DNA of 60,538 nucleotides from Pseudomonadota bacterium. Its GTDB lineage: Bacteria > Pseudomonadota > Alphaproteobacteria > Rhizobiales > JAKPQE01. Position 1 is the stretch's first letter. Each line of letters opens with the position of its first letter. Of the stretch, positions 7,347 through 46,661 are shown piece after piece. The notes below the pieces were generated by a model. That model did not search any database. It was not told the DNA's origin and worked only from the letters and a program-made list of their open reading frames with translations. The stretch covers positions 1-60,538 of the forward strand of contig JAKPQE010000065.1 in the NCBI GenBank assembly GCA_029572955.1, in the 5' to 3' direction. The position numbers and the translations under genes are program-made.

Positions 7347-7370
7347 GGCATTCCGGCCGTGCTGCGAGCC

Positions 7371-8784: not shown

Positions 8785-8805
8785 ACCGCCCCCGCCGCCT
8801 GAGCC

Positions 8806-9780: not shown

Positions 9781-9885
9781 GATCCCCCCCGGATATGTCC
9801 CTCGATTCCGCTTCGAATGAGGCCGGATTTCACATTAGAGGTCAAGCTCATCCGGCACCTGCGCGCCGATGTTGCAGTCGCGCCA

Positions 9886-9913
9886 TTGTGGATTGTCGCA
9901 TTACCGCTATAGT
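9886..9913 (+). promoter_or_regulatory. Candidate typA promoter
   Basis: TTGTGG (9886-9891) and TATAGT (9908-9913) are spaced by 16 bases, 56 bases before the typA start codon. It is the best sigma-70-like pair in the 188-base divergent region. Confidence 0.45.
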
Positions 9914-9968
9914 CCGCGCCGATTTTCATGCGCGCGCCGATATGGCGCTGCGCCCAACCGGTGACCTC

Positions 9969-11804
<1,836 letters not shown>

Positions 11805-11830
11805 GATCGACCGCATCGCGGAGACGTCCC

Positions 11831-11866
11831 GAAAGGTCGGCACATGCATGTGCCGGCCTTTCTTGC
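11831..11866 (+). terminator. Intrinsic terminator of typA
   Basis: A long inverted repeat (GAAAGGTCGGCACATG paired with CATGTGCCGGCCTTTC, one mismatch, 11831-11862) ends in TTCTT, 26 bases after the typA stop. It is a clear rho-independent structure. Confidence 0.75.
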
Positions 11867-11922
11867 ATTCTGCCTGCCGAAAGTGCGCATGCCCCGTTGC
11901 GAAATGGTCTTACCTCCTTAGA

Positions 11923-12447: not shown

Positions 12448-12465
12448 TACCAGGGGTCCGTCGCT

Positions 12466-12747
12466 TCAGTCCGCCTTCTTTTCAAGCCGCCCGCTCTGGC
12501 GCAGCACGAAGCCGATGACCTGCGCCACCGCCCGATAGAGTTCTTCCGGGATCTGGTCGTCGAGTTCGACGAAGGACAGCGCCTCGGCGAGGATCGCGTT
12601 CTCCTCGATGAAGACACCGTGCTCCTTCGCCCTGGCGACGATCTGCTCGGCGACGAGCCCGCGCCCCTTGGCGACCACGGTCGGCACGCCGCCATGCTCG
12701 TAATGGAGCGCCACCGCCACCGAACGCTGCTTGTCGTCCTCGCTCAT
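12466..12747 (-). CDS. FlhB-like C-terminal domain protein (stand-alone)
   Basis: A 93-residue protein resembling the cytoplasmic C-terminal half of FlhB/YscU export switches (SVAVALHYEHGG, VVAKGRGLVAEQIVARAKEHGV, IPEELYRAVAQVI). It has no membrane part and no NPTH autocleavage motif: it begins where the cleaved FlhB fragment would begin, so it looks like a permanently switched form. Such small FlhB2/YlqH-like proteins accompany FliK-like genes. Its ATG overlaps the stop of the upstream FliK-like gene by four bases, which indicates coupled translation. No other flagellar gene lies in the window. Confidence 0.82.
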   Translation of the reverse strand: MSEDDKQRSVAVALHYEHGGVPTVVAKGRGLVAEQIVARAKEHGVFIEENAILAEALSFVELDDQIPEELYRAVAQVIGFVLRQSGRLEKKAD

Positions 12748-14495
12748 GACTGGCGGTCCACGAAATAGCCGGCCCGCTCCGCCGCGCCCTGCCGCCCCGG
12801 CCGGCAGCGGACCTCGTCGATCTCGAAGGCCTCGCCGGTCAGCGCCTGCTTCAGCTCGTCGATCCCGCGCGACAGCTTCTCGGCGCTCTCCGGCCGCTCG
12901 GCCCACAGCGTCACCCCGACCTTCTCGCCGGCCAGCGTGACGAGGGCGTCGACCGGCCCGAGCGGTTCGAGGTCCATGGCGAACCGCACCTGCCAGACCG
13001 GCCCCTTGCGCTCGCTCTTGCCCCGCGCATCGCGGCTGATCGCGAACTGCGCCATCATCGTCTCGGCGCCGAGCCCGACCGGCAGCTCCATGGTCCATTG
13101 CGTGAGGCCCGGCTCGCTGCGTGCGGTCGGGGTGTCGCCGGCATCGGGCAGCGCCGCCATCTGGGCGAGGCGAACCCGCGACAGCGCCGCCTCGGTCTCG
13201 CCGAGAAGGTGACGCGCCATCGCCGGCCCATCGGCGTCGAGCGGCAGGGTCGGCGCGCCGGCGCGCTGGGCCAGCGGCGCGGCGCCACGGCGCGGCGGCG
13301 GCAGCGTCTCGCCGCGCGTCGCCAGCCCCTCCTCCGCCATGTCGCCGAGAAATGTCAGGAGCGCCGATTTCAGCGTACCGAGCGAGGCCTTGAGATCGCC
13401 CTGTGCCGGCGCCTTGCCGTCGGCGAGCCGGGCTTCGAGAAAGACGCCGGAGCGCGCCAGTGCGCTCTTGAGTGCTTCGCCGCTCGGCGCTTCGGCGCTG
13501 TCGAGCCGGAAACCGAGAAGCGCCGCCGCCGCCCGCATCACCGGCTCGGGCAGGCGCTGGCCACGGCCGGCAACGAGCGCCGAGAGATCGGCATAGAGCG
13601 CCGCCATGCTGCCCTGACGCGCGACGTCGCCCCGCATTGCCGCCTGCACCGCCGCCTTCAACGTATCGGCGAGCGGCGGACGGCTCGCCATCTCCGCCGC
13701 CGGCGCCGCCGCGCGGGGCGTTGCCGGCGCAGTGGCTGCCGCCGTAGCGGACGCTCCGGCCGGGGTCGCCGCCGTCGCTGCGCCGGTCGCCGCCGACGTC
13801 TGGCCGCCGGTGGCCGCCGCCGGTGCCGCGCCCCCGCCGGGGCCGGTCTGGCCGGCCGGCGTCGGGACATTCGCCGCCTGCGGCGCACCTCCTTGTGCCG
13901 GCAGCGCCGTGCCACCTGCCGGCTGGGCCGGCGCCGCGGCCGGTGCCGGGCCACCGCCGGGGGCAATGCCTGCGGTCGATGGAGCGCCCGCGCCGGTCGA
14001 GGTCGGCGCCGCAGCCGGAGCCGTTCCGCCGCCCGATGCCGCCGCCGGGCCACGCACGGTGCCGGCCTCACTGCTGCCCGCGGCCGGGGCTGTCCCCGGC
14101 GTCGCCGGCGCCGGCGCGGCCGGTCTTGCCGTGGCCGCAACCGCACCGCCGGTCAGCACCGCCGGGCGATCGAGACCGCTCGCCGGCTGCGGCGCGGCGC
14201 CGGCGCCACCCTGGCCCTGCCCCGTCGCCGCCGTCGGCGGCCGCTCGGTCGGGACCAGCCGCAGGCTGTCGCCCTGGCGCTGCACTTCGAGAAAGAGGGT
14301 CGCGCCGGGCTTCAGCGGCGTTTGCGGCACCGCCTCGAGCAGGCCGAGCAGGGTCTGCAGGCGCACCGAGCCGTTCTCGAGCACGGCCGTCACCCGCGCC
14401 TCGAGCACCTGGCCGTCGGCGAGCGGCTGTCCACCCTTCGTGGCCGCGAGAAGCGCCGACTGACCGGCGGAAAGGGAAAGGTTCTCGATCGCCAC
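12744..14495 (-). CDS. FliK-like flagellar hook-length control protein
   Basis: A 583-residue three-part protein. The N-terminal domain (about 1-85) is followed by a long low-complexity linker rich in Ala, Pro, Gly and Thr (about 86-270), then a C-terminal FliK-type domain (about 450-583) with WTMELPVGLG and a region of alternating strands ending in VRCRPGRQGAAERAGYF. FliK proteins measure hook length and switch export specificity through FlhB-C, and the next gene encodes just such a domain. The pair stands outside any flagellar cluster here, so a modified role is possible. The linker's composition produces long spurious frames on the opposite strand. Confidence 0.72.
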   Translation of the reverse strand: MAIENLSLSAGQSALLAATKGGQPLADGQVLEARVTAVLENGSVRLQTLLGLLEAVPQTPLKPGATLFLEVQRQGDSLRLVPTERPPTAATGQGQGGAGAAPQPASGLDRPAVLTGGAVAATARPAAPAPATPGTAPAAGSSEAGTVRGPAAASGGGTAPAAAPTSTGAGAPSTAGIAPGGGPAPAAAPAQPAGGTALPAQGGAPQAANVPTPAGQTGPGGGAAPAAATGGQTSAATGAATAATPAGASATAAATAPATPRAAAPAAEMASRPPLADTLKAAVQAAMRGDVARQGSMAALYADLSALVAGRGQRLPEPVMRAAAALLGFRLDSAEAPSGEALKSALARSGVFLEARLADGKAPAQGDLKASLGTLKSALLTFLGDMAEEGLATRGETLPPPRRGAAPLAQRAGAPTLPLDADGPAMARHLLGETEAALSRVRLAQMAALPDAGDTPTARSEPGLTQWTMELPVGLGAETMMAQFAISRDARGKSERKGPVWQVRFAMDLEPLGPVDALVTLAGEKVGVTLWAERPESAEKLSRGIDELKQALTGEAFEIDEVRCRPGRQGAAERAGYFVDRQS

Positions 14496-14534
14496 GCTCG
14501 GCCCCGCGCCTGCAAATCCATTGCCGCGAACGAT

Positions 14535-14569
14535 AAAAAGCCGGCGCGGATCTCATCATCCGCGCCGGC
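14535..14569 (-). terminator. Intrinsic terminator of the sulfide-dehydrogenase/tetraheme locus
   Basis: On the minus strand a perfect 12-bp stem (GCCGGCGCGGAT paired with ATCCGCGCCGGC, 14540-14569) is followed by TTTTT. It lies 70 bases after the tetraheme cytochrome stop and before the FliK-like start. Confidence 0.8.
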
Positions 14570-14639
14570 CCGAAGTCTACACCCATTGCCGGCGACACCG
14601 AAGTGCGGCGCCGCGCCGGGCTTCCATTGGGTTACCGGA

Positions 14640-15209
14640 TCACTCCGCCTTGTAGTCGGCCGGCAGCCGGTGAACGATGCCCTTGTGGCAGGAGATGCAG
14701 TGGTCGCCGGTCTCCATCGCTTCCTGATGCTTGCGCTGGGCGCGGCGGCTCTGCTGGTCGATCTCCATGGTCTGGAAGTCGTGGCACGAGCGGCAGTTCT
14801 TCGACTTGCGCGTTTCCATGTGGCCCCAGACGCGCTTGGCCATGGTGAGGCGCTGCGCCTCGTATTTCTCCGGCGTGTCGATGGTGCCGAGGATGTGGTG
14901 CAGCACGTCCTTGCTCGCCGCGATCTTGGCGATGATCTTGGCCGGGAACTCCTTGGGCACATGGCAGTCGGCGCAGCCGACGCGCACGCCCGAGATGTTC
15001 TTGTGATGGAAGCTCTTCTTGTATTCTTCGTAGTTGGTTTCCATCTCGTGGCAAGACGTACAGAATTCTGTCGTATTGGTGTAGTCGAGCCCGGCACTGA
15101 ACCCGACGAGCAGGCAGAACATGCCGATCGCACCGAAGAAGAAGGCCGCGAGAACCCGCGGCCGCTTAACGAAATCCCAAGCTTTTCTCAACGCACCTGC
15201 CCCCAACAA
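14640..15209 (-). CDS. NapC/NirT-family membrane tetraheme cytochrome c
   Basis: A 189-residue quinol-linked cytochrome. One N-terminal membrane anchor (about 18-42) is followed by four CxxCH haem sites: CTSCH 50-54, CADCH 79-83, CRSCH 139-143 and CISCH 171-175. This number and spacing fit the NapC/NirT family, which passes electrons between the quinone pool and periplasmic partners. It lies 133 bases downstream of the flavocytochrome c sulfide dehydrogenase genes in the same direction, with a terminator after it. A role in moving sulfide-derived electrons to or from quinone is an inference from position. Confidence 0.9.
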   Translation of the reverse strand: MLGAGALRKAWDFVKRPRVLAAFFFGAIGMFCLLVGFSAGLDYTNTTEFCTSCHEMETNYEEYKKSFHHKNISGVRVGCADCHVPKEFPAKIIAKIAASKDVLHHILGTIDTPEKYEAQRLTMAKRVWGHMETRKSKNCRSCHDFQTMEIDQQSRRAQRKHQEAMETGDHCISCHKGIVHRLPADYKAE

Positions 15210-15342
15210 GAACAGACCGGCATGCTCCCCCCAGCATGATCCGGCCGGTTATCCTCCGGCCTCTTTCCGATCCCGGCGCGACGGCGACGGGAGCCGCGCG
15301 GCAGCCGAGGCCGCCGCGCGGAACGTGTCGCTTCGCTGTGGC

Positions 15343-16635
15343 TCAGCCCCAGCTGTCCTTGCGGATGTTGTTGTACCAGCTGTGAGCGTAGCCGACCTCG
15401 CGCTTGAACTGCTCGGGGCTGGCGTCGCCCGGCGTCAGGCCGCCGGCACCCTCGACACCGCCGATGACGTCCTTCTCGGCGTTGTAGCGGTACACCGCCG
15501 CGACCGAGAAGCCGTAATCCTTGCCGGCAATCGAGTAGCAGGTGTTGACGTAGGACGGCGTCACCGGCTCCTTGCCGGCGAGGATCGCGGCAATCGCCGC
15601 GGCCGTGACCTTGCCCTGCGAGTTGGCCGAATAGCCCGACTTCGGCATCGCCGTGGCGATCGCCGCGTCACCGATGACGTGGACGCCGGCCACCTTCTTG
15701 GATTCGAAGGTCTGCTTGTCGACCGGGCACCAGCCCTTCTCGTCGGCGAGGCCCGCATCCATGGCGATCTTGCCCGCCGTCTGCTGCGGGATGTAGTTCA
15801 GCACCGCCGGCTTGAAGGTCTCGAAGTCGGTGACGATTTCCTTCGTCCCCGCGTCGACCTTGGAGATGCCGCCGACCTTGGCGAACGGCAGCCACTCGAT
15901 CAGGCTGTTGTCGGTCTCGAACCCGTAGAGCTTCTTCCAGGCGCCGGTGAACAGGCCCTGCTTGGCGAACTTCTCCTTCGGGTCGATGATGATGACCTTC
16001 GACTTCGGCTTGTGCTCCTTGAGGTAGCCGGCGATCAGGCTGGCGCGCTCGTAGGGCCCGGGCGGGCAGCGGAACGGATCGGCCGGCGCGACGATCGCGA
16101 CGAGCCCGCCATCCTCCATGGCCTCCAGCTGCTTGCGCAGGATGGTGGTCTGCTCACCGGCCTTCCAGGCGTGCGGCACGTTGCCGGCGTCGGCCTCGGT
16201 GATGCCCTCGTGGGTGTAGTTGAAGTCGATGCCCGGCGCGACGACGCAGCGGTCGAAGGCAAAGCTCTGGCCGCCCTTGGTGGCGACCGTCTTGGCGCCG
16301 CCGTCGATGCCGGTGGCGAAGTCGTGCACGACGTTGACGCCGATCTTCTTCAGACCGTCGTAGCCGACCTGGATCTGCTCGATCGTGCGCTCGCCGCCGA
16401 GCACTTCGTTCGACATGAAGCAGGTGTGATAGAGCTCGTTCGGCTCGATCAGCGTGACGTCGATGTCGGGATTGGCGAGTTTGAGATAGCGCGCCGTGGT
16501 GGCGCCACCCGGGCCGCCGCCGATGATCACGACCTTGCCGCCCGCCGCGCGCGCGACATGGGGCAGGCCGAGAGCGCCGGCGAACGCGGTGGCGCCGCTG
16601 AGCTGGACGAAAGTCCGACGATTGATAGCGGTCAT
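15343..16635 (-). CDS. fccB: Flavocytochrome c sulfide dehydrogenase, flavoprotein subunit
   Basis: A 430-residue exported flavoprotein. A Tat signal (RRTFVQLSG) is cleaved near residue 30, then comes the FAD motif VVIIGGGPGGATTARYL. The cysteine for covalent FAD is Cys72 (HTCFMSNEV). The redox pair is Cys190 (FRCPPGPYER) and Cys366 (NTCYSI). Subtracting 30 gives 42, 160 and 336, in line with Cys42, Cys161 and Cys337 of the Allochromatium enzyme as I recall them. It oxidises sulfide to sulfur in the periplasm with FccA. The ATG at 16635 is preferred because a GGGGGGAAAG Shine-Dalgarno precedes it; an ATG at 16653 overlaps the fccA stop by four bases. Confidence 0.93.
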   Translation of the reverse strand: MTAINRRTFVQLSGATAFAGALGLPHVARAAGGKVVIIGGGPGGATTARYLKLANPDIDVTLIEPNELYHTCFMSNEVLGGERTIEQIQVGYDGLKKIGVNVVHDFATGIDGGAKTVATKGGQSFAFDRCVVAPGIDFNYTHEGITEADAGNVPHAWKAGEQTTILRKQLEAMEDGGLVAIVAPADPFRCPPGPYERASLIAGYLKEHKPKSKVIIIDPKEKFAKQGLFTGAWKKLYGFETDNSLIEWLPFAKVGGISKVDAGTKEIVTDFETFKPAVLNYIPQQTAGKIAMDAGLADEKGWCPVDKQTFESKKVAGVHVIGDAAIATAMPKSGYSANSQGKVTAAAIAAILAGKEPVTPSYVNTCYSIAGKDYGFSVAAVYRYNAEKDVIGGVEGAGGLTPGDASPEQFKREVGYAHSWYNNIRKDSWG

Positions 16636-16649
16636 GGCTTTCCCCCCGA

Positions 16650-17270
16650 TCATTTCTGGCTGCCGAAGAAATTGATGACCGCGGCGATGCCTTCCTCGCC
16701 ATGCGTGTCGACCAGGTCCTTCAGATTGCGCTGCTTCTTGTTGCGCTCCTTGGAGGAGAGCGCCTCGTTGTTTTCGAGATTGCGCGTGCCGGAGATCAGG
16801 TCGCGCAGCTCGGACTCGATGTACGGCATCATCTGGCCGGCGAGCGCCGGATAGTCCTCGGCCGACCGCCCGTCCTTCTCGTGGCAGTCCTCGCAGAGAT
16901 TGTCGTAAATCTCCTTGCCCTTGGCCACGAGCGCCGGGTCGGTCTTCTGGTCGACGATGCGACCGAACGGCTTGGCCGCGAAATACTCGGCGATCAGCTT
17001 CAGCTCGTCGTCGCTGTAGCCCTTGGCGATGCGCTGCATGATCGTCGACGGGCGCTTGCCGTCACGGAACGCCTGCATCGTCTCGACCATGTAGTCCTTG
17101 TTGGTGCCGGCGATGGTCGGCGAGGCCGGACCATAGCTCGTGCCGTCGGGCCCGTGACAGCCGTTGCAGGTGTCCGCCAGGAGCGAGGCACTCATCTCGG
17201 CGCCGAGCGCGAGACCGCCACTCGTCATCAGGAGCACGCAGGCAGACCCGAGGATCGCTTTGATTCTCAT
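16650..17270 (-). CDS. fccA: Flavocytochrome c sulfide dehydrogenase, dihaem cytochrome subunit
   Basis: A 206-residue exported dihaem cytochrome c. A signal peptide (about 1-24, ending ALGA) is followed by two class I-type cytochrome domains with CNGCH (35-39) and CEDCH (126-130). Methionine ligand candidates follow in each half. Length and duplicated fold match FccA/SoxE-type electron acceptors, and the flavoprotein gene follows with almost no gap. Electrons from sulfide would pass FAD to haem to a soluble cytochrome or, in this locus, possibly to the tetraheme protein. It is the first gene of the unit; the 320-base region upstream should hold the promoter. Confidence 0.92.
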   Translation of the reverse strand: MRIKAILGSACVLLMTSGGLALGAEMSASLLADTCNGCHGPDGTSYGPASPTIAGTNKDYMVETMQAFRDGKRPSTIMQRIAKGYSDDELKLIAEYFAAKPFGRIVDQKTDPALVAKGKEIYDNLCEDCHEKDGRSAEDYPALAGQMMPYIESELRDLISGTRNLENNEALSSKERNKKQRNLKDLVDTHGEEGIAAVINFFGSQK

Positions 17271-17525
17271 GTTTCCCCCACAATGGATTATTTGTTTCGT
17301 TTCAAATTAGCGATCGCAATTATACGCAACTTCGCCGTCATGAAAAGAGACCTGAAGCTTTATTAGACATTTCCCGTATTGTGCCCCGCAATAACACTTC
17401 GTATGACATCCCGTTCAAAAATTTCTTACAGTTTGCTGGAATTCCTAAAAATCGTTAGTCTCTAATATACGCATAAAGACGCCAAAATATGCGGCGTTGC
17501 AACATGAAGATTCTTGCATAAGAAA
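17271..17525. promoter_or_regulatory. AT-rich non-coding region upstream of fccA with inverted repeat
   Basis: No gene is seen between fccA and the coiled-coil gene terminator. This stretch is strikingly AT-richer than its surroundings. It contains an inverted repeat, AATT-A-GCGATCGC-AATT, at 17305-17321, about 35-50 bases upstream of the fccA start, where an operator could sit. The palindromic 8-mer GCGATCGC is its core. A weak promoter-like pair on the minus strand (TTGCGG, 18 bases, TCTAAT) lies near 17350-17385. Sulfide-responsive control is an inference from the operon's job. Confidence 0.4.
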
Positions 17526-17553
17526 ACGGCGCGGGGGCAAAACCCCGCGCCGT
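17526..17553 (-). terminator. Intrinsic terminator of the coiled-coil protein gene
   Basis: On the minus strand an 11-bp perfect stem (ACGGCGCGGGG with CCCCGCGCCGT) and six-base loop is followed by TTTTCTT, 38 bases after the stop of the coiled-coil gene. Confidence 0.75.
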
Positions 17554-17590
17554 CTCGAACCCCTGACCCCGATGCGATCGAGCCCGTCCC

Positions 17591-18847
17591 TCAGCGTGCC
17601 GCAACCTCGCGCAGCACGCGGATCCGGTCGGCAAGGGACATTGCTCCGGCATCGGCGCCATTGCCGCTCGCCGCCTTGCCCTTGCCGCTCTCGGCGAGGA
17701 TGCGGTTGATCACCGACCCCTCGCCTTCGAGGGCGGCCGTCATGCGGCCGATTTCGGCGGCGATGTCGTTGATTCGCTCGCGCAGCAGCGCGTGTTCCGA
17801 GCGCTCCGCCTCCCAGTCGCGATCGGCCGACCGGTTGCTCCGGGTGATTTCTTCCTTGAGGCCGGTATTTTCGGCAACGAGGGTCGCGAGCTTGTCCTCG
17901 AGCAGCGACTTGGCGGCCGTCAGGCTGCCGATCCGGTTCTTCAGCACCTCGCCGCTGCGCTCCACCGCGTCGCGCTCGCCCTCGAGCCGGGAGCGCAGGC
18001 TCGCCACCTCGCCCTCGAGTTCGAGCCGCGCCGTCTCGGCGGCGACGAGGCGCTCCTCGAGATCGCCGGCGCGGCCGTCGCCCGAGCTCAGCTCGGCCTG
18101 CAGGGCGGCAAGATCGCCCTTCTTCTTTTCCACCTCGGCGTCGCGCGCCGCGACGTCCGCCCGGCGCTGCTCGGCGGCAGCGTCCAGTTCGGCGATCCGC
18201 GCCTTGGCCTCGGCGATCTCGCCGGCGCGTTCCTCGGCCCGCGCTTCGGCCGCCACCAACCGCGCCCGATCCGCGGTGCGCTCCATGCGCAGCGTCGCGA
18301 TCTCGTCGCGCAGCGCGTCCATCTGGGTCGAGCGCGCCACCAGTTCCACCTTCTGGCCGTCGAAGTCGCTGCGCGTCTCGGCATAGCGCTCCTCGACCCG
18401 CTTGAGGTCCTCGCTGCGCATGTCGAGGGTACGCTGCACCTCGCGCAGGTTCCGCGAAACCTGGGCGATCTCCTCTTCCTTCTGCAGGATGGTGCGGCGC
18501 AGGTCGCCCTCGCGATTTTCCAGGTCGACGATCGCGGCGATCTTGTCGTCGCGCTCGGCGCCGAGCATCTGGATCGTCTCGCGCTTCTTGCCGATCTCGA
18601 AAAGCTGGTCGGCGGCGCGCTTCTTCAGCTCCTCGACGCTGAGCTCGAGGCGCCGCGTCGACAGCGCGAATTCGGCGCGAAGCTGATCCTTCTCGGCCCG
18701 GATCTCGTCGAGGCTGAGCGGGATCGATCCCTCGATCCGGCGCTGCGTCAGCCGCGCCGCCCGGCGCACGACGATCGGCACCAGCAGCAGGCCGAGGAGG
18801 CCGGCGGCAAGTGCCCCGAGTGCGAAATACATGGCAGCTTCGATCAC
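17591..18847 (-). CDS. Membrane-anchored coiled-coil protein, function unknown
   Basis: A 418-residue protein with one N-terminal transmembrane helix (YFALGALAAGLLGLLLVPIV) and then the conserved-looking segment RRIEGSIPLSLDEIRAEKDQLRAEFA. Almost uninterrupted heptad-rich coiled coil follows (about 50-380), dominated by Glu, Arg, Ala and Leu. Proteins of this design occur widely in Hyphomicrobiales but I know no assigned function. The GTG at 18847 is chosen because GGAGG stands seven bases before it and it places the helix at the very N-terminus. Longer frames upstream have no such site. The gene has its own terminator. Confidence 0.7.
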   Translation of the reverse strand: MIEAAMYFALGALAAGLLGLLLVPIVVRRAARLTQRRIEGSIPLSLDEIRAEKDQLRAEFALSTRRLELSVEELKKRAADQLFEIGKKRETIQMLGAERDDKIAAIVDLENREGDLRRTILQKEEEIAQVSRNLREVQRTLDMRSEDLKRVEERYAETRSDFDGQKVELVARSTQMDALRDEIATLRMERTADRARLVAAEARAEERAGEIAEAKARIAELDAAAEQRRADVAARDAEVEKKKGDLAALQAELSSGDGRAGDLEERLVAAETARLELEGEVASLRSRLEGERDAVERSGEVLKNRIGSLTAAKSLLEDKLATLVAENTGLKEEITRSNRSADRDWEAERSEHALLRERINDIAAEIGRMTAALEGEGSVINRILAESGKGKAASGNGADAGAMSLADRIRVLREVAAR

Positions 18848-18922
18848 CGGCAGGCCTCCACTCGCAACTGTCCCAGCCGGGCGGGCCTCGCGATCCGCAA
18901 AGCGTTCTCCGCCCAAACGCCA

Positions 18923-18961
18923 AAAAAAGAACCCGGCCCCGTTTCATGTCCGGGACCGGGA
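18923..18961 (-). terminator. Intrinsic terminator after eipA
   Basis: Minus-strand hairpin with arms CCCGGTCCCGG and CCGGGGCCGGG (18933-18961, imperfect), followed by TTCTTTTTTT. It lies between eipA and the downstream coiled-coil gene and ends the eipA transcript. Confidence 0.65.
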
Positions 18962-19037
18962 TCATGCCAGATGTCGCAGCCTGCCGCCACGTTAAGACCG
19001 GATTAACCTAAACGGCCGGCCCCGTTCGGCGAAACGC

Positions 19038-19625
19038 TCAGAACGGGTTCCAGGTCGGCTTCTGCCGGAATTTCAGATAGCCGACATTGACGCCGAGGCG
19101 GGCGCCGACGCCGGCGCGGACCGGCACCACGTAGATGTCGTGGTTCGACAGCACCGTCATGCCGAAGCCGCCGACCAGATAGGCCGAGCCGGCGACGCCG
19201 ACGAAGCGGCGGAAGATCGCGTCGATGCTCGGCAGATTGTAGACCAGCATCATCGTGCGGGCGCCGTCGCCGCCGAAATCCCAGCCGAGCGACGGGCCCT
19301 GCCAGTAGACCTTGTGGACGCCGGCATTCTTGGTGAAGAGCTGGCCCTCGCCGTAGCGCAGGCCGACCGCGAGCGCCCCCGAGCCTTCCTCGCCGAGGAT
19401 GTAGCCGTTCGGCTGGCCGTATTTGCTGACCGCGCGCTCGACGACGGTGGCGAGCCCCTGCGAGACCTTGCCGAAGAACTGATGGCCCGCACTGACGATC
19501 TCGTTGGTCGAGTAGGTGCCCTGCCCGGTGTCCTGGGCCGCCGCCGGCAGCGCCGCAACACCGGCCAGAGCCGCCATCGTGAGCCCGAGCGCCGCCCGGA
19601 CGATCTTCGCTGCAAGGGTTCTCAT
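19038..19625 (-). CDS. eipA: EipA-type envelope integrity protein (DUF1134)
   Basis: A 195-residue periplasmic protein. A signal peptide (about 1-31, ending PAAAQ) precedes the DUF1134 domain, with YSTNEIVSAGHQFFG, a Gly-rich beta stretch (GYILGEEGSGALAVGLRYGEG) and LGVNVGYLKFRQKPTWNPF at the end. This is the EipA family described in Brucella, needed for envelope integrity and interacting genetically with LPS O-antigen synthesis. Of two adjacent ATG codons the second (19625) has better spacing from the GGAGG site. It is divergent from the YHS-domain gene. Confidence 0.85.
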   Translation of the reverse strand: MRTLAAKIVRAALGLTMAALAGVAALPAAAQDTGQGTYSTNEIVSAGHQFFGKVSQGLATVVERAVSKYGQPNGYILGEEGSGALAVGLRYGEGQLFTKNAGVHKVYWQGPSLGWDFGGDGARTMMLVYNLPSIDAIFRRFVGVAGSAYLVGGFGMTVLSNHDIYVVPVRAGVGARLGVNVGYLKFRQKPTWNPF

Positions 19626-19796
19626 CATCCCTCCCTGGAAGGTGGCCGGCGCTGTCGCCGGCGCCCCGCGACCCCATGGCCTCAAGGGCATTAACGCTCG
19701 CCACACCGATGCCGCCTAGACTGGCGACCGGCATTCCCGGCGAGGCGCGCAACGGCGCGAATCGCTCGCCGATCGAGCGCAGTTTGGAGGCGATTC

Positions 19797-37180: not shown

Positions 37181-38650
37181 TCAGTTCGGAACGCTGCCTT
37201 CCGGATTGGGCGGGAAGGCGGCGTTGACCTGGGTTCCGCGCAAGAGGCCGAAGGCATAGTTGAGCTGCGTGTCGTCCTTCGGATCGGGCGGCACATAGGC
37301 CGACGACCCGGAGCTCTCCTCCGGCTTCGCCCCGTCTTCGGCCGGCGCCATGCTGTCGGTCGGAGCCATGCCGTCGGCCGGCGCCATGCTCTCGGCCGGC
37401 GCCATGCTCTCGGCCGGCGCCATGCTCTCGGTCGGGGCCGCGGCATCGCCCGCCGGCGCGCCGCCATTGGTCTCGTTGATGAGATGGCCCGGCAGGTCGG
37501 CTTCGCCGCGCGGCTTGTCCTTGCCCTTCAGCTCGTCCGGGATGTTCTGCAGGACGACGATGTCCGGCTCGATGCCGGTCGCCTGGATCGAGCGGCCGGA
37601 CGGCGTGTAGTAGCGCGCCGTGGTCAGCCGGATGGCGCCGTTCGAGCCGAGCGGGATGATCGTCTGCACCGAGCCCTTGCCGAACGACCGGCTGCCGACG
37701 ATGGTCGCCCGGCGATGGTCCTGCAGCGCGCCGGCGACGATCTCCGAGGCCGAGGCCGAACCGCCGTTGACGAGCACGATCACCGGCTTGCCCTTGGCCA
37801 GATCGCCTGGCCGGGCGTTGTAGCGGTCGGCTTCCTCGGCCTTGCGGCCGCGCGTCGAGACGATCTCGCCGCGCTCGAGGAAGGCGTCCGAGACCGCGAT
37901 CGCCTGATCGAGCAGACCGCCCGGATTGTTGCGCAGGTCGACGACGTAGCCCTTCAGCTTGTCCTTGCCGACCTGCTTGGAAATCTTGTCGATCGCCGCC
38001 TTCAGGCCGTCATAGGTCTGCTCGTTGAACTGGGTGACGCGGATGTAGCCGACGTCCTCGCCCTCGATTCGGTCCTTGACCGAGCGGATGCGGATGATGT
38101 CGCGCACCACCTTGATCTCGAGCGGCTCGCCGGCGCCCTCGCGCACGATCGTCAGGATGATCTCGGAATTGACCGGACCGCGCATCTTGTCGACGGCCTG
38201 GTTGAGGGTCATGCCCTGCACCTGTTCGCCGTCGAGATGGGTGATGAGGTCGCCCGCGAGGATGCCGGCCCGCGAGGCCGGCGTATCGTCGATCGGCGAG
38301 ACCACCTTGACGATGCCCTCTTCCATCGTGACCTCGATGCCGAGCCCGCCGAACTCGCCACGGGTCTGCACCTGCATGTCCTTGTAGTTCTTCGGATTGA
38401 GGTAACTCGAATGCGGGTCGAGCGAGGTCAGCATGCCGTTGATCGCCGATTCGATCATCTTGGCTTCGTCCGGCTCCTCGACATAGTCGGCCCGAACCCG
38501 TTCGAACACGTCGCCGAACAGATTGAGCTGACGGTAGGTATCGGTGGCCGCGGCGATCGCCGAGCCGACCCAGCCGTCCAGCTGCGACACCGTCACCGTC
38601 GCAGTAGCGCCGAGCAGCGCGCCGGCGAGCACTAGAGAAATCTTCCGCAT
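37181..38650 (-). CDS. ctpA: Carboxyl-terminal processing protease CtpA (S41)
   Basis: A 489-residue exported serine protease. A signal or anchor sequence (about 1-34) is followed by a helical N-domain and a PDZ domain (about 95-180, GEFGGLGIEV to VREGAG). The S41 core has catalytic Ser300 in GGSASASEI and Lys325 in RSFGKGSVQT. It trims periplasmic proteins near their C-termini and often works on peptidoglycan enzymes. Odd: the C-terminal tail holds a tandem six-residue repeat (xxSMAP units). Its ATG overlaps the stop of the EnvC-like gene by one base (TAATG). Confidence 0.95.
   Translation of the reverse strand: MRKISLVLAGALLGATATVTVSQLDGWVGSAIAAATDTYRQLNLFGDVFERVRADYVEEPDEAKMIESAINGMLTSLDPHSSYLNPKNYKDMQVQTRGEFGGLGIEVTMEEGIVKVVSPIDDTPASRAGILAGDLITHLDGEQVQGMTLNQAVDKMRGPVNSEIILTIVREGAGEPLEIKVVRDIIRIRSVKDRIEGEDVGYIRVTQFNEQTYDGLKAAIDKISKQVGKDKLKGYVVDLRNNPGGLLDQAIAVSDAFLERGEIVSTRGRKAEEADRYNARPGDLAKGKPVIVLVNGGSASASEIVAGALQDHRRATIVGSRSFGKGSVQTIIPLGSNGAIRLTTARYYTPSGRSIQATGIEPDIVVLQNIPDELKGKDKPRGEADLPGHLINETNGGAPAGDAAAPTESMAPAESMAPAESMAPADGMAPTDSMAPAEDGAKPEESSGSSAYVPPDPKDDTQLNYAFGLLRGTQVNAAFPPNPEGSVPN
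37341..37439. repeat. 18-bp in-frame tandem repeat in the ctpA tail
   Basis: Five 18-bp units of the form GCCGGCGCCATGCTCTCG plus a half unit encode the six-residue period ESMAPA/DSMAPT on the minus strand. Units three to five are identical, so the array should be prone to copy-number change. It lies outside the protease core. Confidence 0.85.
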
Positions 38651-40026
38651 TATCCGCGAGCCTTTTCGTCAGTCGTGCCCGCCCACCACGGGGCGGAGTC
38701 GATTGCGGTGCCGTCCTTGCGAAATTCGACATAGAGGACCGGTTGCGAGGACAATATATCCACTGCGGTCGCGCTTGCCAGCTTTCGCGTACCCATCACG
38801 GCCACAGGTTCTCCGGCAAGAACGAACTGGCCGAGTTCGACGTCGATTCTCTCCATGCCGGCAAGCACGATATGGTACCCGCCGCCGACATTTACGATCA
38901 ATAGCTGGCCGTAGGAGCGGAACGCCCCGGCATAGACCACCCAGCCGTCGGCCGGCGCGACGACCTGGGCGCCGGCGCGGGTGGCGATCGATCGCCCCTT
39001 GGCCTCGCCGCCGATGCCGTCCGGCGCGCCGTATTCGCGCACGATGACGCCCTTGACCGGCAGCGGCGCGAGCCCGCGCGCATCGTCGAAGGCCATCGCC
39101 GGCGTGATGCGGCCGGTGTCGGCGAGCGCCACCTTGGCCGGCTTCTCCTTGCCCTCGGCCTTGGCGACCGCCGCCTCGGCGTCGGCCTTGGCGGCCGCTT
39201 CGGCCGCGCCGCGCGCCGCCGCGATATCGGTCTCGAGCTTGCCGATCAGGTCCTTGAGGCTGGTCACCTGGCCGGCGAGCTCGCCGGCGGTCTTGCGCTC
39301 CGCCTCGAGGCTCGCGGTCGAGACCTCGCCGCCCTTCTTCTTTTCCTCGATCAGCTTCTGCAGCCGCGCCCGTTCCTCGGCGAGCGTCGTCACCTCGCCC
39401 TTCAGCCGGTCGCGCTCGTCGGTCATCTTCTTTTCGAGCCCGACGAGTTCGGCAAGATCGGCGGCGAGCGCATCCGCCTCGACCCTGAGTTCCGGCAGCA
39501 CCGCGCCGAGCAGGATCGCGCTGCGCACCGCCGCGAGTGCGTCGTCTGGCCGCGCCACCAGTGCCGGCGGCGGCTTGCGCCCGATTCGCTGCAGCGCGGC
39601 GAGCAATTCGGCGAGCACCCCGCGCCGCTCGGCGAGCGAGGCCCGAATGCTTTTCTCGTTGGCCGCCAGTGTCAGCAACCGTCGCTCCGTCGCCGAAATG
39701 GCCTCTTCGGCCTCCTGGGTGCGCCGCGCCGTCTTGATCAGCTCGGCATTGATCCGCGCCCTGTCGTTCTCGAGCGCGGCGATCTCGTTCGCCAGCGCCT
39801 TCTGCCGCTCCTCGGACTGCGCCAGCGCCGCCGCCGCCTTTTCGAGCGCGCCCTCGGCCGACTGCTTTTCGACCGACAGCCGGTCGACCGGATTGCCGGT
39901 CATCTCCGTTGCCGCCTCCGGCGCCTTCGGCTCCTCGGCGCGGACCGGGCAGAGCGGCAACAGGGTCGCCAGCGCGACCGTCGCACTCCACCGAACAGCC
40001 CGCCCTCTCCAGGCACCTTGCGCCAT
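38650..40026 (-). CDS. EnvC-like murein hydrolase activator (M23 domain)
   Basis: A 458-residue exported protein. A signal peptide (ending VRAEE near residue 32) is followed by a long two-part coiled coil (about 50-265) and a C-terminal LytM/M23 domain (about 325-445) with GRSIATRAGAQVVAPADGWVVYAG and GGYHIVLAGMERIDV. The zinc ligands of true M23 peptidases look incomplete (HIVLAG in place of HxH), as in EnvC, so an activator role for amidases is likelier than hydrolysis. The ATG at 40026 is preferred over a TTG four codons upstream. Coupled to ctpA. Confidence 0.88.
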   Translation of the reverse strand: MAQGAWRGRAVRWSATVALATLLPLCPVRAEEPKAPEAATEMTGNPVDRLSVEKQSAEGALEKAAAALAQSEERQKALANEIAALENDRARINAELIKTARRTQEAEEAISATERRLLTLAANEKSIRASLAERRGVLAELLAALQRIGRKPPPALVARPDDALAAVRSAILLGAVLPELRVEADALAADLAELVGLEKKMTDERDRLKGEVTTLAEERARLQKLIEEKKKGGEVSTASLEAERKTAGELAGQVTSLKDLIGKLETDIAAARGAAEAAAKADAEAAVAKAEGKEKPAKVALADTGRITPAMAFDDARGLAPLPVKGVIVREYGAPDGIGGEAKGRSIATRAGAQVVAPADGWVVYAGAFRSYGQLLIVNVGGGYHIVLAGMERIDVELGQFVLAGEPVAVMGTRKLASATAVDILSSQPVLYVEFRKDGTAIDSAPWWAGTTDEKARG

Positions 40027-42550: not shown

Positions 42551-42940
42551 ATGAGACATTTGCTCGTCACAGGCGCGGCTCTCGCCCTTCTTCTGGCGTC
42601 CGGCGCGATTGCCGGCGCAACCGATCTGGTCCCGGCACCGGCCGTGGATCCGGGCACGACCGCCAGCATCGCCGACGGCAAGGCCCGCCATATCGTGGTC
42701 AGCGGCCCGGCCGACATCGTCATCACCGTCGAGCGCCAGGCCCGCGAACAGCCGACCGTGCGCTGGTATCCCGACAACCGCTACATCGTCGTACCGCCCG
42801 AGGGGCCGGCGCCCGTCGCCGAGGCCCGCAGGCTCGACCTCGACGATTTCGGCGGTGGCCGGGCGCCCGACTGGAACGAGCCCGACCTGCCGCCGGCCCG
42901 CTCGACCATTCACATCACCATCGAGACCGTCCAGCGCTGA
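42551..42940 (+). CDS. Small exported protein, first gene of the OmpA-caspase cluster
   Basis: A 129-residue protein I do not recognise. A signal peptide (about 1-22, ending GAIAGA) is followed by a short beta-rich segment (KARHIVVSGPADIVITVERQ) that mirrors a segment near the C-terminus of the OmpA-domain protein two genes on (VVPGGAGDVTVTVEP). A Pro/Asp-rich middle and a final strand (STIHITIETVQR) follow. AAGGAG precedes the ATG. It lies 48 bases before the OmpA-domain gene and is probably periplasmic. Confidence 0.65.
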   Translation: MRHLLVTGAALALLLASGAIAGATDLVPAPAVDPGTTASIADGKARHIVVSGPADIVITVERQAREQPTVRWYPDNRYIVVPPEGPAPVAEARRLDLDDFGGGRAPDWNEPDLPPARSTIHITIETVQR

Positions 42941-42988
42941 GCGGCGCGATGCGGCAAGGCCCGACGGGCCGCAGCCAGGGAGAACGAA

Positions 42989-43753
42989 ATGTCCGCCATC
43001 ATGAAGCGTCTCGGAGCAGCGGCCCTGGTGGTCCTGCTCGGCGCCGGCACGGCCCTCGCCGCCAGCGAGTCCGAGATCAACGCCATCATCAAGTCGCTGG
43101 CGCCGATCAAGGGCCAGACCATCAGCCCCGGCTACGGCGGCGGCCAGGCCGAGGAAGTCCTCGTCGACCGCGACCGCATCACCGTCGACTACGCCTATTC
43201 GGTCGAGATCGAGGTCTACTTCCCGTTCGACAGCGCCCGCCTGACGCCGCGCGCCAAGGATCAGCTCGAGGCGCTCGGTCGCGCCCTCGAATCGCAGACC
43301 CTGGTGCCGTACCGCTACCTCGTCGCCGGCCACACCGACGCCAAGGGCTCGGCCGCCTACAACGAGGACCTGTCGTGGCGCCGGGCCCGGTCGGTCGCCA
43401 GCTATCTCATCGAGAATTTCGCCATCGAGCCGCGCCGCCTGCGCACCAAGGGCTGGGGCGAAAGCCGCCTGAAGGATCCGGGCCACCCGAACGCCGGCAT
43501 CAACCGCCGCGTCGAGATCGTGCTGATGCGGCCGATGGCGATGGAGCAGCTGACGCCCGAGCCGCAGGGCCACACGACGACGATCGTCGTTCCCGGCGGC
43601 GCCGGTGACGTCACCGTGACGGTCGAGCCGCGCGACGAGACCCCGGCCGGCATGGCCGGCGATCGCCCGGCGGCAGCGCCCGTCGAGCCCGCGACCGATC
43701 CCGCCACCGGCCTCAAGGTGCGGCCGGACGGCAGTGTCAAGATCCCGTGGTAG
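42989..43753 (+). CDS. Exported OmpA-domain protein (peptidoglycan-binding)
   Basis: A 254-residue protein. A signal peptide (about 1-25, ending ALAA) is followed by a short N-domain and the OmpA C-terminal domain: FPFDSARLTPRAKDQLEALG (78-97), AGHTDAKGSAAYNEDLSWRR (113-132, with Asp117 and Arg132 placed to bind diaminopimelate), and NRRVEIVL (172-179). No lipobox or beta-barrel is seen, so it is likely soluble and attached to peptidoglycan. The Pro/Glu-rich tail (about 185-254) is unusual for this short class. It should serve as the wall anchor of the cluster. Confidence 0.85.
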   Translation: MSAIMKRLGAAALVVLLGAGTALAASESEINAIIKSLAPIKGQTISPGYGGGQAEEVLVDRDRITVDYAYSVEIEVYFPFDSARLTPRAKDQLEALGRALESQTLVPYRYLVAGHTDAKGSAAYNEDLSWRRARSVASYLIENFAIEPRRLRTKGWGESRLKDPGHPNAGINRRVEIVLMRPMAMEQLTPEPQGHTTTIVVPGGAGDVTVTVEPRDETPAGMAGDRPAAAPVEPATDPATGLKVRPDGSVKIPW

Positions 43754-43835
43754 ACAGGGAGAGGAAAGCCGACCCGGCGGCACCGGTCGCCGCCGGCGAG
43801 AAGACCGAAAAAGCGATCCGAGAGAGGGACAAGCC

Positions 43836-44816
43836 ATGAAAAGACATCTGACCACCTTCCTGGCGATGCTCGCCGTGGTCGGCGCCGTGGATTTTGCGAC
43901 GCCCGTTTTCGCCGGTGAACAGCCCAACCTGCTGATCATGGGCGAGGACGCGGACCAGGACACCGTTCCCCGCAACTCGCGCGTCTTCAACCAGGTGCTG
44001 AACGCGCTGGCCGGCGAGATGCAGGCCAAGGGCTTCAAGGTCTATGACGAGACCGCCGTCTCCATGGACATCACCAATCCCGGCGTGGTCCGGCGCACCG
44101 ACGCCGAGGTGCTGACCATCGCCAAGCGCATTCCCGGCGTGCCGATCGACGTCGCGACGGTCTTCCAGATCTACGCCTTCGCCGAGCGCAACCCCTATGC
44201 CAACATCACCGATCTGCGCGTGCGGATCCCCGGCCGGCTGATCAACGTCCAGACCGGCCAGGCGCTCGGCAATTACGAGATCGCCTATGGCCCCGGCCAG
44301 CTGACCCCGCTGCCGGTCCAGTGCAACCGCGATTGCGTGCTCGAGCATGTCGGCGGCGAGGCCAAGAAGATCGCCACCGATGTCGGCGCCGTGCTCGCCC
44401 AGAAGCTCGACTTCCTGTCGCCGGCCCGGCCGCAGTCGCCGACCGCCGTCCTGCAGGGTGGCGGCATGAGCGGCATGACCGGCGTGCCGAGCGGCATGAT
44501 GGGCATGACCGGCATGGCCGCCCCGAGCGACTGCACCGGCATGACCACAGCCTATTCGCTGGTCTTCAACGGCTTCGCGCCCGAGGAGATCACCCGGATC
44601 GAGGAGTACATCGTCTCCTTCAAGGGCTATGACCATCATCGCCCGATGCGCGCCCAGCTCACCTCGTCCGAATACTGGTACGAGACCTGCTCGGACGCCG
44701 CCCGGCTCAACCGAAACCTGCGCCTGATGGCCGAGCAGATGGGCATCCAGACGCGGATCGGCATGGTCGGCAACAAGATCCAGGTCGACAAGATTGCGCC
44801 GCCGATGCAGCGCTGA
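43836..44816 (+). CDS. Exported protein with Met-rich linker, unknown function
   Basis: A 326-residue two-domain protein I cannot name. After a signal peptide (about 1-26, ending VFAG) the N-domain (about 28-200) begins PNLLIMGEDADQDTVPRNSRV. It has alternating strands and helices that suggest a CsgG/LpoB-like or other periplasmic assembly fold (inference). A linker at 211-236 has seven methionines (MSGMTGVPSGMMGMTGMA then ending CTGM). The C-domain (about 238-326) has YIVSFKGYDHHRPMRAQL and two Cys that may pair. A GAGAGAGG site precedes the ATG. It stands between the OmpA and caspase genes. Confidence 0.65.
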   Translation: MKRHLTTFLAMLAVVGAVDFATPVFAGEQPNLLIMGEDADQDTVPRNSRVFNQVLNALAGEMQAKGFKVYDETAVSMDITNPGVVRRTDAEVLTIAKRIPGVPIDVATVFQIYAFAERNPYANITDLRVRIPGRLINVQTGQALGNYEIAYGPGQLTPLPVQCNRDCVLEHVGGEAKKIATDVGAVLAQKLDFLSPARPQSPTAVLQGGGMSGMTGVPSGMMGMTGMAAPSDCTGMTTAYSLVFNGFAPEEITRIEEYIVSFKGYDHHRPMRAQLTSSEYWYETCSDAARLNRNLRLMAEQMGIQTRIGMVGNKIQVDKIAPPMQR

Positions 44817-44841
44817 CTAGAGTGTCGTCCGATCATCGGAG

Positions 44842-44861
44842 CGGGGCGGTCCGCCGCCCCG
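44842..44861 (+). terminator. GC hairpin between the Met-rich protein and caspase genes
   Basis: A perfect stem CGGGGCGG/CCGCCCCG with a four-base loop lies 25 bases after the stop and 37 bases before the caspase start. There is no T-run, so it may attenuate transcription or protect the upstream message rather than end it. Confidence 0.4.
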
Positions 44862-44897
44862 TTCCCGTCCCCACCCGAGGCATGACCGGAGCAACCG

Positions 44898-46661
44898 ATG
44901 AAACGGTCGGCGACCCCAAGGTTTCGTGCCACGCTTGCCGCGACGGCCATCCTCGCCGTCGGCTTCCTCGCCGCCGCCGGCCTGCCCGTCCGCGCCAGTG
45001 AGCGCGCCGACCTCTGCGCCCGCAATCGCGACAGCATCGCCCTCGTCATCGGCAACCGCGACTACGAACAGACGATCGCGGTTCCCTATGCCGGCAACGA
45101 CGCCCGCGCCATCCGCCAGTTCCTGGTCGACCGCCTGTGCTATCGCGACGGCAACGTGGTGCTGCTCGAGAACGCCACCTTCAATCATCTGCGCAACTGG
45201 CTCGGCACCGCCGACGATCCGCACGGCCAGCTCTGGAACTGGGTCAAGCCCGGCCGTTCCGACGTCGTCGTCTACTATTCCGGCCACGGCGCCCCGGACC
45301 GCTCCGGCGGCTCGGCCTACATCGTCCCGGTCGACGGCAATCCCGACAAGGCCGACCTCGGCTTCTCGCTCGAGACCCTCGAGCGCAACCTCGAGGCCCT
45401 CAAGGAAAACGTCCTCGGCCCCGACCGTCAGCTGGTGCTGATGCTCGACGCCTGCTTCTCCGGCAAGACCTCGAGCGGCGAGCCGCTGATCAAGGGCTCC
45501 TTCACCGGCTGGACGCCGAAATACCCGACCGCGACGAGCGGCATCCTGCGCTTCTCCGCCGCCGGGCCGGACGAGATCGCCCGCTGGGACGAGGACGCCG
45601 GCCACGGCCTCTTCACCCGCGTCTTCCTCGACGGCGTCGCCGGCGCCGCCGACCGCAACATCGCCGGCGATCGCGACGGCGTCGTCAGCGGCGACGAGCT
45701 TCTCGCCTATCTCGCCGACGAGGTCGGCTATGCCGCCCGCCGCCGCTGGGGCGCCGACCAGCGCCCCGACCTGCCGAAGGCCGGCAGCCTTGTCTGGCGC
45801 ATCGCCGTCGGCCGCGACTATCCGGCCGGCGAGGCCTTCCGCGACTGCACCGACTGTCCGGAGATGATCGCCATTCCCGCCGGCAGCTTCGACATGGGCT
45901 CGCCCGCCGACGAGCCCGGCCGCCACGCCGACGAGGGCCCGCGCCACGAGGTCGCCTTCGCCGCCCCCTTCGCCCTGTCGCGCACCGAGGTGACGGTCGG
46001 CGATTTCCGCCGCTTCGCCGAGGCGACCGGCCATGCCGCGACCGGCCGCTGCCGCGCCTTCGAGGGCGGCCGCTGGCAGGAGACCGGCGGCGACTGGTCG
46101 GCACCCGGCTTTGCCCAGGGCGAGGACGAGCCCGTCGTCTGCCTCGCGGCCGGCGACGTCGCCGCCTATATCGACTGGCTCAACGATCGCGCCGGCGGCG
46201 GCTATCGCCTGCCGAGCGAGGCCGAATGGGAATATGCCGCAAGGGCCGGCAGCGCCGCCGCCTATCCCTGGGGCGCCGACGTCGACAAGGGCTGCGGCCA
46301 CGCCAACGGCCCGGACCGCGCCGGCACCGCGCTCGCCGGCGGGCTTGCCGCCATGGCCTGCGACGACGGCTTTGCCCGCACCGCCCCGGTCGGCCGCCTC
46401 CGGCCCAACGCCTTCGGCCTCCACGACATGGCCGGCAATGTCTTCGAGCGCACCGCCGACTGCTGGCACGCGAGCTATGCCGGCGCACCGGCCGACGGCG
46501 GCGCCTGGATCGACGGTACGACTTGCGAGAAACGCGTGATCCGCGGCGGCTCCTACATCCTCAATCCGCGCACGCTCCGAAGCGCCGCCCGCAGCCCGAT
46601 CGAGGATGCGACCGCGGCGGTCAATGTCGGCTTCCGCCTCGCCCGCTCGCTCGGCTTCTGA
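44898..46661 (+). CDS. Secreted caspase-like protease fused to a formylglycine-enzyme-like domain
   Basis: A 587-residue exported fusion. A signal peptide (about 1-33) is followed by a C14/caspase-like domain (about 45-300) with catalytic His130 in YYSGHG and Cys186 in LDACFSG. The second domain (about 320-585) is of the FGE/SUMF1 type, with IPAGSFDMGS, EVTVGDFRRF, YRLPSEAEWEYAARAG, HDMAGNVFE and VIRGGSY. The two cysteines needed for formylglycine formation are missing: the stretch after GGSY is ILNPRTLRSAAR. The domain is therefore probably a binding module. It is last of a four-gene run and overlaps the convergent glycosyltransferase by 41 bases. Confidence 0.9.
   Translation: MKRSATPRFRATLAATAILAVGFLAAAGLPVRASERADLCARNRDSIALVIGNRDYEQTIAVPYAGNDARAIRQFLVDRLCYRDGNVVLLENATFNHLRNWLGTADDPHGQLWNWVKPGRSDVVVYYSGHGAPDRSGGSAYIVPVDGNPDKADLGFSLETLERNLEALKENVLGPDRQLVLMLDACFSGKTSSGEPLIKGSFTGWTPKYPTATSGILRFSAAGPDEIARWDEDAGHGLFTRVFLDGVAGAADRNIAGDRDGVVSGDELLAYLADEVGYAARRRWGADQRPDLPKAGSLVWRIAVGRDYPAGEAFRDCTDCPEMIAIPAGSFDMGSPADEPGRHADEGPRHEVAFAAPFALSRTEVTVGDFRRFAEATGHAATGRCRAFEGGRWQETGGDWSAPGFAQGEDEPVVCLAAGDVAAYIDWLNDRAGGGYRLPSEAEWEYAARAGSAAAYPWGADVDKGCGHANGPDRAGTALAGGLAAMACDDGFARTAPVGRLRPNAFGLHDMAGNVFERTADCWHASYAGAPADGGAWIDGTTCEKRVIRGGSYILNPRTLRSAARSPIEDATAAVNVGFRLARSLGF

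Follow-up and report, generated by a model that had tools for sequence, protein, structure and literature searches.

What would an intact caspase-like protease be doing beyond the inner membrane, beside a protein that is likely to be fixed to the cell wall? The question is raised by four genes at positions 42551–46661 of contig JAKPQE010000065.1, a stretch of 60,538 nucleotides (hereafter the window) from an alphaproteobacterium of the order Rhizobiales (assembly GCA_029572955.1). The best reading is that a multi-gene system of proteolytic response is scattered among the Alphaproteobacteria and that these genes are its envelope half, the second half being found on another contig of the same genome. 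We consider it very probable that the gene set constitutes one functional system; the chances that this is a regulated envelope protease system working about as proposed below are evenly balanced, and for any given trigger they are far smaller.

The four open reading frames (ORFs) all lie on the + strand, separated by gaps of 48, 82 and 81 bases, and encode proteins referred to here as P0001 (42551–42940, 129 amino acids), P0002 (42989–43753, 254 amino acids), P0003 (43836–44816, 326 amino acids) and P0004 (44898–46661, 587 amino acids). A sequence-only reading of this DNA had described a co-directional cluster encoding four exported proteins, among them an OmpA-domain protein and a caspase–FGE fusion, and this description holds up well: each protein begins with a probable N-terminal Sec-type signal peptide when read by eye (the same reading showed no lipobox in any of the four N-termini), P0002 matches PF00691 (75.3 bits), and P0004 matches both Peptidase_C14 (PF00656, 45.9 bits against a cut-off of 21.4) and FGE-sulfatase (PF03781, 198.4 bits). 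The caspase domain (45030–45677 by a hidden Markov model (HMM) built here, residues 47–249 by Pfam) contains the His–Cys dyad, intact as claimed, with His130 in YYSGHG and Cys186 in DACFSG, and P0004 is thus, by sequence, a prokaryotic caspase homologue. The C-terminal domain (45843–46658 by Pfam, alignment and our own HMM) belongs to the FGE fold family, but it had rightly been said to lack both catalytic cysteines: there is none where P0004 aligns with the genuine FGE 5nxl, whose cysteines we take to be the catalytic pair, and the domain is therefore not classed as an FGE. A scan of the cluster for promoters and terminators returned nothing exceeding shuffled sequences.

Related loci were sought with P0003 as bait, chosen as the unnamed, specific member of the cluster (no Pfam model above cut-off, no NCBIfam match and no PADLOC match). 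It was matched at seven loci in named genomes, and in 6 of 101 relatives, 17 of the 397 genomes searched in the order and 18 of the 385 in the class, the window genome being included in each count. The surroundings of most matches were taken, giving 41 loci with that of the window (bases 32001–56000), which were scanned with profiles built here; two loci (L087 and L088) on the same contigs as others (L011 and L013) were left out of the counts, and the matches in G563 and G437 were left out both here and in the C14 test described below. The gene set proves to be larger than had been seen from the window alone, adding a DUF4384-type gene and three families designated c4, c12 and c13. Within 10 kb of P0003 there is an OmpA domain at 27 of the 41 loci, a C14 caspase at 20, a trypsin at 8, an S8 subtilase at 5 (any of the three proteases at 23) and an FGE domain at 4, together with DUF4384-type genes at 20, c4 at 20, c12 at 16 and c13 at 18. 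When only the strand of P0003 is considered the numbers are 26 for OmpA, 15 for C14, 8 for trypsin, 4 for S8, 22 for any protease, 20 for DUF4384-type genes, 18 for c4 and 15 for c13. The loci fall into up to 28 genus-level groups, an upper figure for which the labels of the named loci were assigned by us, and among these groups OmpA is represented in 19, a protease in 16 and c13 in 15.

Two genome-wide tests carry the argument that these associations are not accidental. When the Pfam C14 model was run over 32 P0003-bearing genomes, the distance from P0003 to a C14 gene was at most 10 kb in 18 of them, at most 5 kb in 10 and at most 3 kb in 7, where random placement predicts 0.66, 0.34 and 0.21 respectively; the tail probability at 10 kb is 1e-24, a figure that overstates independence since the genomes are related. 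Among the 397 genomes already searched with P0003, c13 (matches of E < 1e-20) is present in 16 and P0003 in 17, and both are present in 14 (Fisher p 4e-21; by genus, 10 of 11 in each direction). Matches of E 1e-5 to 1e-3, seen in 10 genomes and aligned only from model position 167 onwards, were not counted as c13. The co-occurrence goes beyond mere linkage, since the c13 and P0003 loci lie on different contigs in three genomes (G000, G225 and G244). In a further genome (G040) a c4–c12–c13–OmpA group stands beside a second, truncated P0003 match at a contig edge.

The window genome carries the second half of the set on its contig C12, where our own profiles place c4 at 3762–5132, c12 ending at about 5643, c13 at 5656–6888 and a DUF4384-type gene at 6888–8261, in the same order as in L011. 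The last of these was called by our own profile (E 3.6e-24), and the Pfam model gave no report at E 0.01. It is immediately followed by a phage-type tyrosine integrase gene (L109, 8677–9864), which suggests a genomic island. The whole set is assembled as one array, in one direction, on the mobilizable plasmid pMaq22A_2p of Methylobacterium aquaticum (NZ_AP014706.1), the only one of 72,556 plasmids in which P0003 was matched. This array comprises a caspase with Sel1 repeats, a DUF4384-type gene, an unnamed gene in the 166-amino-acid range, c4, c12, c13, a trypsin, an OmpA protein and P0003; its annotation names three of these nine products (caspase family, serine protease and OmpA family) and gives the other six as 'hypothetical protein'. 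The set is thus real, recurrent and apparently mobile, and its membership is well supported, whereas its mechanism and trigger, and indeed all steps beyond the joint export of its proteins, we infer.

The c13 protein appears by eye to have one membrane segment, followed by two invariant cysteines. A Ser and a Lys are invariant in 10 sequences, and their spacing, in the register of Lon-like proteases, is attractive. The profile comparison is nevertheless weak (hhalign E 0.033 with a probability of 1.5 %; E 0.76 with a smaller profile) and the structural model is poor (mean predicted local distance difference test score (pLDDT) 46.8, with meaningless fold matches), and we therefore retain a Lon-like assignment only in the boldest of the readings considered below.

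Several observations weigh against a single, obligatory system. Seven of the 41 P0003 loci (L089, L094, L097 and L100–L103) have no partner within 10 kb, although two of these (L101 and L102) begin close to the end of a contig; no C14 gene lies within that distance in 14 of the 32 P0003-bearing genomes examined; C14 lies solely on the opposite strand in 5 of the 20 loci that have it; and the FGE domain is a rare neighbour, near P0003 in just 4 of the 41. The c4, c12, c13 and DUF4384-type families were discovered in these very loci, and the locus counts for them are therefore partly circular and not independent; the genome survey for c13 is the better test, even though its model drew mostly on sequences from these loci. 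P0003 occurs without c13 in 3 of 17 genomes (G028 and G164, which belong to one genus, and G301). Proximity also has a background. The window genome has eight C14 genes, and no P0003 was found around the other seven (in six stretches), two of these stretches having a generic OmpA-domain match about 2.6 and 5.3 kb from C14. The caspase itself also occurs without P0003. A search of 199 genomes of the order with P0004 often matched no more than the FGE-like part; the caspase domain was covered, at E 1e-30 or better, in nine genomes besides that of the window (G001, G009, G040, G096, G136, G166, G173, G174 and G195), of which six have no P0003 and three (G040, G173 and G195) do. In the nearest genome (G001, of the same family) the caspase is 53 % identical, there is no P0003, and no partner is seen in the 14 kb after the caspase gene, although the contig begins just before that gene and the genome is 84 % complete. 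The sequence-only reading had held that a separate conserved context for the caspase gene would count against a system, and the caspase is indeed not tied to P0003 everywhere: since six genomes have them without P0003, P0004-type caspases are also used outside the set. For G173 and G195 the distance from P0003 to this caspase is about 8–9 kb, with a DUF4384-type gene in between. In G040 a P0004-like caspase of 39 % identity (L185, contig C4, 8493–10771), on a different contig from P0003, is directly beside a DUF4384-type gene.

The most constant neighbour of P0003 is the OmpA protein, which lies within 1 kb of the P0003 homologue and on the same strand in 25 of the 41 loci. P0002 is likely to be a peptidoglycan anchor: R132 is invariant and D117 nearly so in 12 sequences, both align with the solved OmpA domains 9v99 and 5u1h, and they correspond to the Asp/Arg pair that we take to be the peptidoglycan-binding residues. 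The subfamily also has an N-terminal signature, IIKSLAP in P0002 (43085–43105, + strand). The pattern [IL][IL]x[SQ]LAP is found in 20 of the 7,294 ORFs of these loci, and all 20 are OmpA ORFs. In three loci (L011, L012 and L015) the OmpA domain is fused with a subtilase in one reading frame.

P0003, the marker of the set, consists of an N-terminal domain (residues ~27–197), a variable linker and a C-terminal domain (residues ~236–320), as judged from the alignment and from an AlphaFold2 model built from nine sequences (mean pLDDT 73.8), in which two confident domains are predicted around a low-confidence linker at 197–231. The linker had been described as methionine-rich, and that of P0003 does have 7 Met in 34 residues, but homologues have other linkers in the alignment and this is not a feature of the family. 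No meaningful sequence match was found in the PDB with P0003 or with the P0003, c4 and c13 profiles. The modelled N-terminal domain is matched by FlgT (Foldseek E 4.7e-6; Z 11.4 over 149 residues, 4.1 Å), PelC (Z 10.2), CsgG (Z 9.6), the TolB N-domain, GNA1162, HpaA and LptE, and by LpoB too; as modelled it has the FlgT/TolB-N/CsgG fold, and these matches would therefore place P0003 among proteins of the outer envelope. Identity to FlgT, the TolB N-domain, CsgG, PelC and LptE is only ~5–18 % over the shared fold, and P0003 differs from proteins of this fold in its extra C-terminal domain and in the pair C163 and C167, which is invariant in 13 sequences. The C-terminal domain was matched only by a ribosomal protein (Z ~9 over ~85 residues), a result that we do not trust. 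P0003 is duplicated in several genomes (L011, 9968–13614; L015, 8296–12051; L026, 8723–17878), one copy each in L011 and L015 appearing shortened or split. We also note that in M. aquaticum a gene of ~324 amino acids with no Pfam match (L191, 16933–17907) immediately follows P0003, and that two further clusters, c14 (~600 amino acids) and c15 (~160 amino acids), recur beside the OmpA–P0003 pair in L024 and L025, from two genomes of one family.

The protease of the set is less fixed in kind than in apparent competence. The caspase His and Cys are kept in all 23 further C14 rows that cover both sites (the L093 row covers neither), the eight trypsins retain TN(H/Y)HC and GSSG(S/G), and the five subtilases retain GTSM. 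The domains joined to the caspase vary as well, being PvdO/FGE-like in the window, Sel1 in M. aquaticum, and WD40 and DUF1349-like in Pelagimonas. Since both the protease type and its partner domains differ among loci, the caspase appears from these sequences to be interchangeable with two other types of protease, and we read the slot as 'a protease' with a varying extra domain, which may be the recognition part. In Pelagimonas (L009 and L010, ~7258–19640) the set is doubled around a single P0003, with the DUF4384-type, OmpA and caspase genes each present twice along with one trypsin, one of the L009 caspases carrying WD40 repeats and the other the DUF1349-like parts. The closest relative of the extra domain of P0004 is PvdO, dihydropyoverdine dehydrogenase (PDB 5hha, E 4.5e-59), which in the same alignment also has no Cys at the FGE positions. 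P0004 differs from PvdO in that the domain is fused to a caspase and scores 245.6 bits against the PvdO equivalog NF051459, below its cut-off of 500. Elsewhere in the window, on the − strand, a gene for an S41/CtpA-type protease with C-terminal repeats resembling APAESM/APADGM (37181–38650) adjoins one for an M23 peptidase (38650–39903).

P0001 is an orphan by comparison, with no Pfam model above cut-off, no NCBIfam match and no convincing relative besides itself in the 199 genomes; a candidate in G156 (E 8e-4) has two stops inside and was set aside. The suggestion that P0001 and the OmpA protein share a similar short beta motif fails, since 208 of 500 shuffles reach the P0001–P0002 score, and likeness to P0003 and P0004 is likewise absent (445 and 269 of 500). 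Against the L009 OmpA protein the result is borderline (18 of 500 shuffles reach the score), and with that of L010 the score is reached by 66 of 500. What P0001 does contain is the hexapeptide LDLDDF (residues 95–100; 42833–42850, + strand), which occurs in 7 of the 7,294 ORFs, these being P0001 and the tails of six OmpA proteins of the system. The OmpA tail of M. aquaticum also carries it, related tails have LDD(F/Y)xx(G/P)RTP, and P0002 itself has no LDLDDF. Because the motif is shared only with OmpA tails of the system, P0001 may be a displaced OmpA tail. In another clade a similar LDDF is in a loop of P0003. Where LDDF or LDDY is in P0003 (L011, L012, L013, L015 and L090) the OmpA tail has no motif, and where the motif is in the OmpA tail (L009, L010, L077–L080 and L083–L085) P0003 has no LDDF; many loci, L023 and L076 included, have it in neither, and as the split follows clades we do not claim that the two placements are mutually exclusive.

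These observations can be accommodated in a simple scheme. The OmpA protein would tether a complex to the wall, with P0003 as an adaptor and short LDDF peptides, in the OmpA tail, P0001 or the P0003 loop, docking the parts together. The caspase would be stationed in the periplasm beside this complex, and its extra domain, which varies among loci (PvdO/FGE-like in the window, Sel1 or others in relatives), could recognize or present the substrate. The protease might then be freed or activated when the wall or outer membrane is disturbed or a foreign particle is met, and the response could be coupled to the cytoplasm by c13 together with c4 and c12. The sequence-only reading had proposed a wall-anchored, regulated protease system, and the first part of this stands to the extent that OmpA, P0003 and catalytically intact proteases recur together in scattered Alphaproteobacteria, while regulation is our conjecture as much as it was that reading's. 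A bolder version, which we entertain as a tentative possibility, makes this a trans-envelope proteolytic signalling system of a new category, in which a wall-anchored OmpA protein, a FlgT/TolB-like adaptor and interchangeable exported proteases would be joined by LDDF peptides supplied in cis (P0003 loop) or in trans (OmpA tail, or P0001 as a free carrier), and an inner-membrane c13, possibly a Lon-like Ser–Lys protease, would signal inward with c4 and c12. If so, we know of no earlier case in which a cascade of several proteases, a caspase among them, is assembled beyond the inner membrane of a bacterium.

The fold of P0003 also invites a structural interpretation. Its top matches include parts of rings or channels (FlgT, PelC and CsgG, with the Z-scores given above), and P0003 could form a ring at the outer membrane within a trans-envelope secretion or assembly complex, tied to the wall by OmpA, with the FGE-like domain as a ring part in the manner of PorK/GldK and the proteases maturing cargo. 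The type IX system of Bacteroidota does combine an FGE-like fold and an OmpA-type wall anchor in one apparatus, and P0004 and P0002 have some similarity to GldK (91.6 bits) and PorE (52.8 bits), both far under the cut-offs of 350 and 600; the comparison was confined to these parts of the apparatus. TolB, LpoB and GNA1162 match P0003 too, however, and neither TolB nor LpoB is known as a ring protein; an FGE-like domain found at so few of the loci cannot be a core ring part; and the families scored, which do not account for all neighbours, include no outer-membrane channel. We consider this arrangement unlikely. The same FGE-like domain might instead point to biosynthesis or modification, in which the PvdO-like domain would oxidize a peptide or siderophore in the periplasm and the caspase would trim it; PvdO is a periplasmic enzyme and is the closest match found. 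The sub-threshold equivalog score, the absence of the domain from most P0003 loci and its replacement by Sel1, WD40 or DUF1349-like parts in the other caspases of the set make such a role very improbable.

A stronger rival, though in our view still an unlikely one, is that this is an envelope conflict system, serving in phage or predator defence or in abortive lysis, and thereby matching, outside the cytoplasm, the conflict systems built around peptidases that Kaur et al. (2020) described. It is kept because the variable caspase partners, exchangeable peptidases, patchy distribution (17 of 397 and 18 of 385 genomes) and mobile settings, namely the mobilizable plasmid and the integrase beside the second half, resemble such systems, in which caspase, trypsin, FGE-type and OmpA modules are described in the portions of that paper available to us (PMC7159879). 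Nevertheless, no vWA, MoxR or other NTPase was found among the system genes scanned, which do not cover every gene of each locus, and PADLOC 2.0.0 (2023), run on eight proteins, gave no specific anti-phage system, returning only generic caspase (36.6 bits), ZorB-like OmpA and RT-protease-to-trypsin matches. A chance neighbourhood of unrelated exported genes would account for the orphan P0001, for the rarity of FGE domains around P0003 and for P0004-like caspases in genomes without P0003; the sequence-only reading had treated rare co-occurrence as its refutation, and on that test P0003 is firmly placed whereas P0001, for want of a convincing relative, is not. For the set as a whole we regard chance as extremely improbable and ruled out by the C14 linkage (18 observed, 0.66 expected) and the co-occurrence of c13 and P0003, the set recurring across the class and on a plasmid. 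The reading of the cluster as the envelope half of a proteolytic response system is thus the one we prefer.

Individual elements of this arrangement have precedents. In a survey of metacaspases, FGE-sulfatase domains were reported in 4.9 % and OmpA in 14 of 217 operons, and possible signal peptides were noted for prokaryotic caspase homologues (Asplund-Samuelsson et al., 2012; PMC3501461); the accessible parts of that account describe no set of P0003, DUF4384-type, c4, c12 and c13 genes, no exchange of proteases and no OmpA signature. Modules for caspase, trypsin, FGS and OmpA are found in vWA–MoxR and other conflict systems (Kaur et al., 2020; PMC7159879), and, as far as the sections consulted go, the present set resembles the VMAP, iSTAND ternary and System 4 types in its exchangeable caspase and trypsin, in FGS and OmpA domains that serve there as effectors, and in the proximity to membrane or wall of some of them. 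Unlike VMAP and iSTAND, which are built on vWA–MoxR, it looks exported and has no vWA–MoxR among the genes scanned. P0004 also falls short of the EACC1-type caspase model NF047832 (49.5 bits, cut-off 140). A literature search that covered few subscription journals found no description of this gene set.

Bacterial relatives of caspases are abundant and mostly without known function, and those that have been studied are regarded as intracellular. An intact caspase apparently sent to the periplasm, beside a wall anchor, provides a concrete context for bacterial caspase function. That a trypsin or subtilase adjoins P0003 elsewhere, with or without a caspase, suggests that the role lies in proteolysis itself and not in any special caspase chemistry. 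The set also brings to light several families unnamed in the libraries searched (P0003, c4, c12 and c13), and it looks like an apparently undescribed, peptidase-centred multi-gene system of the cell envelope.

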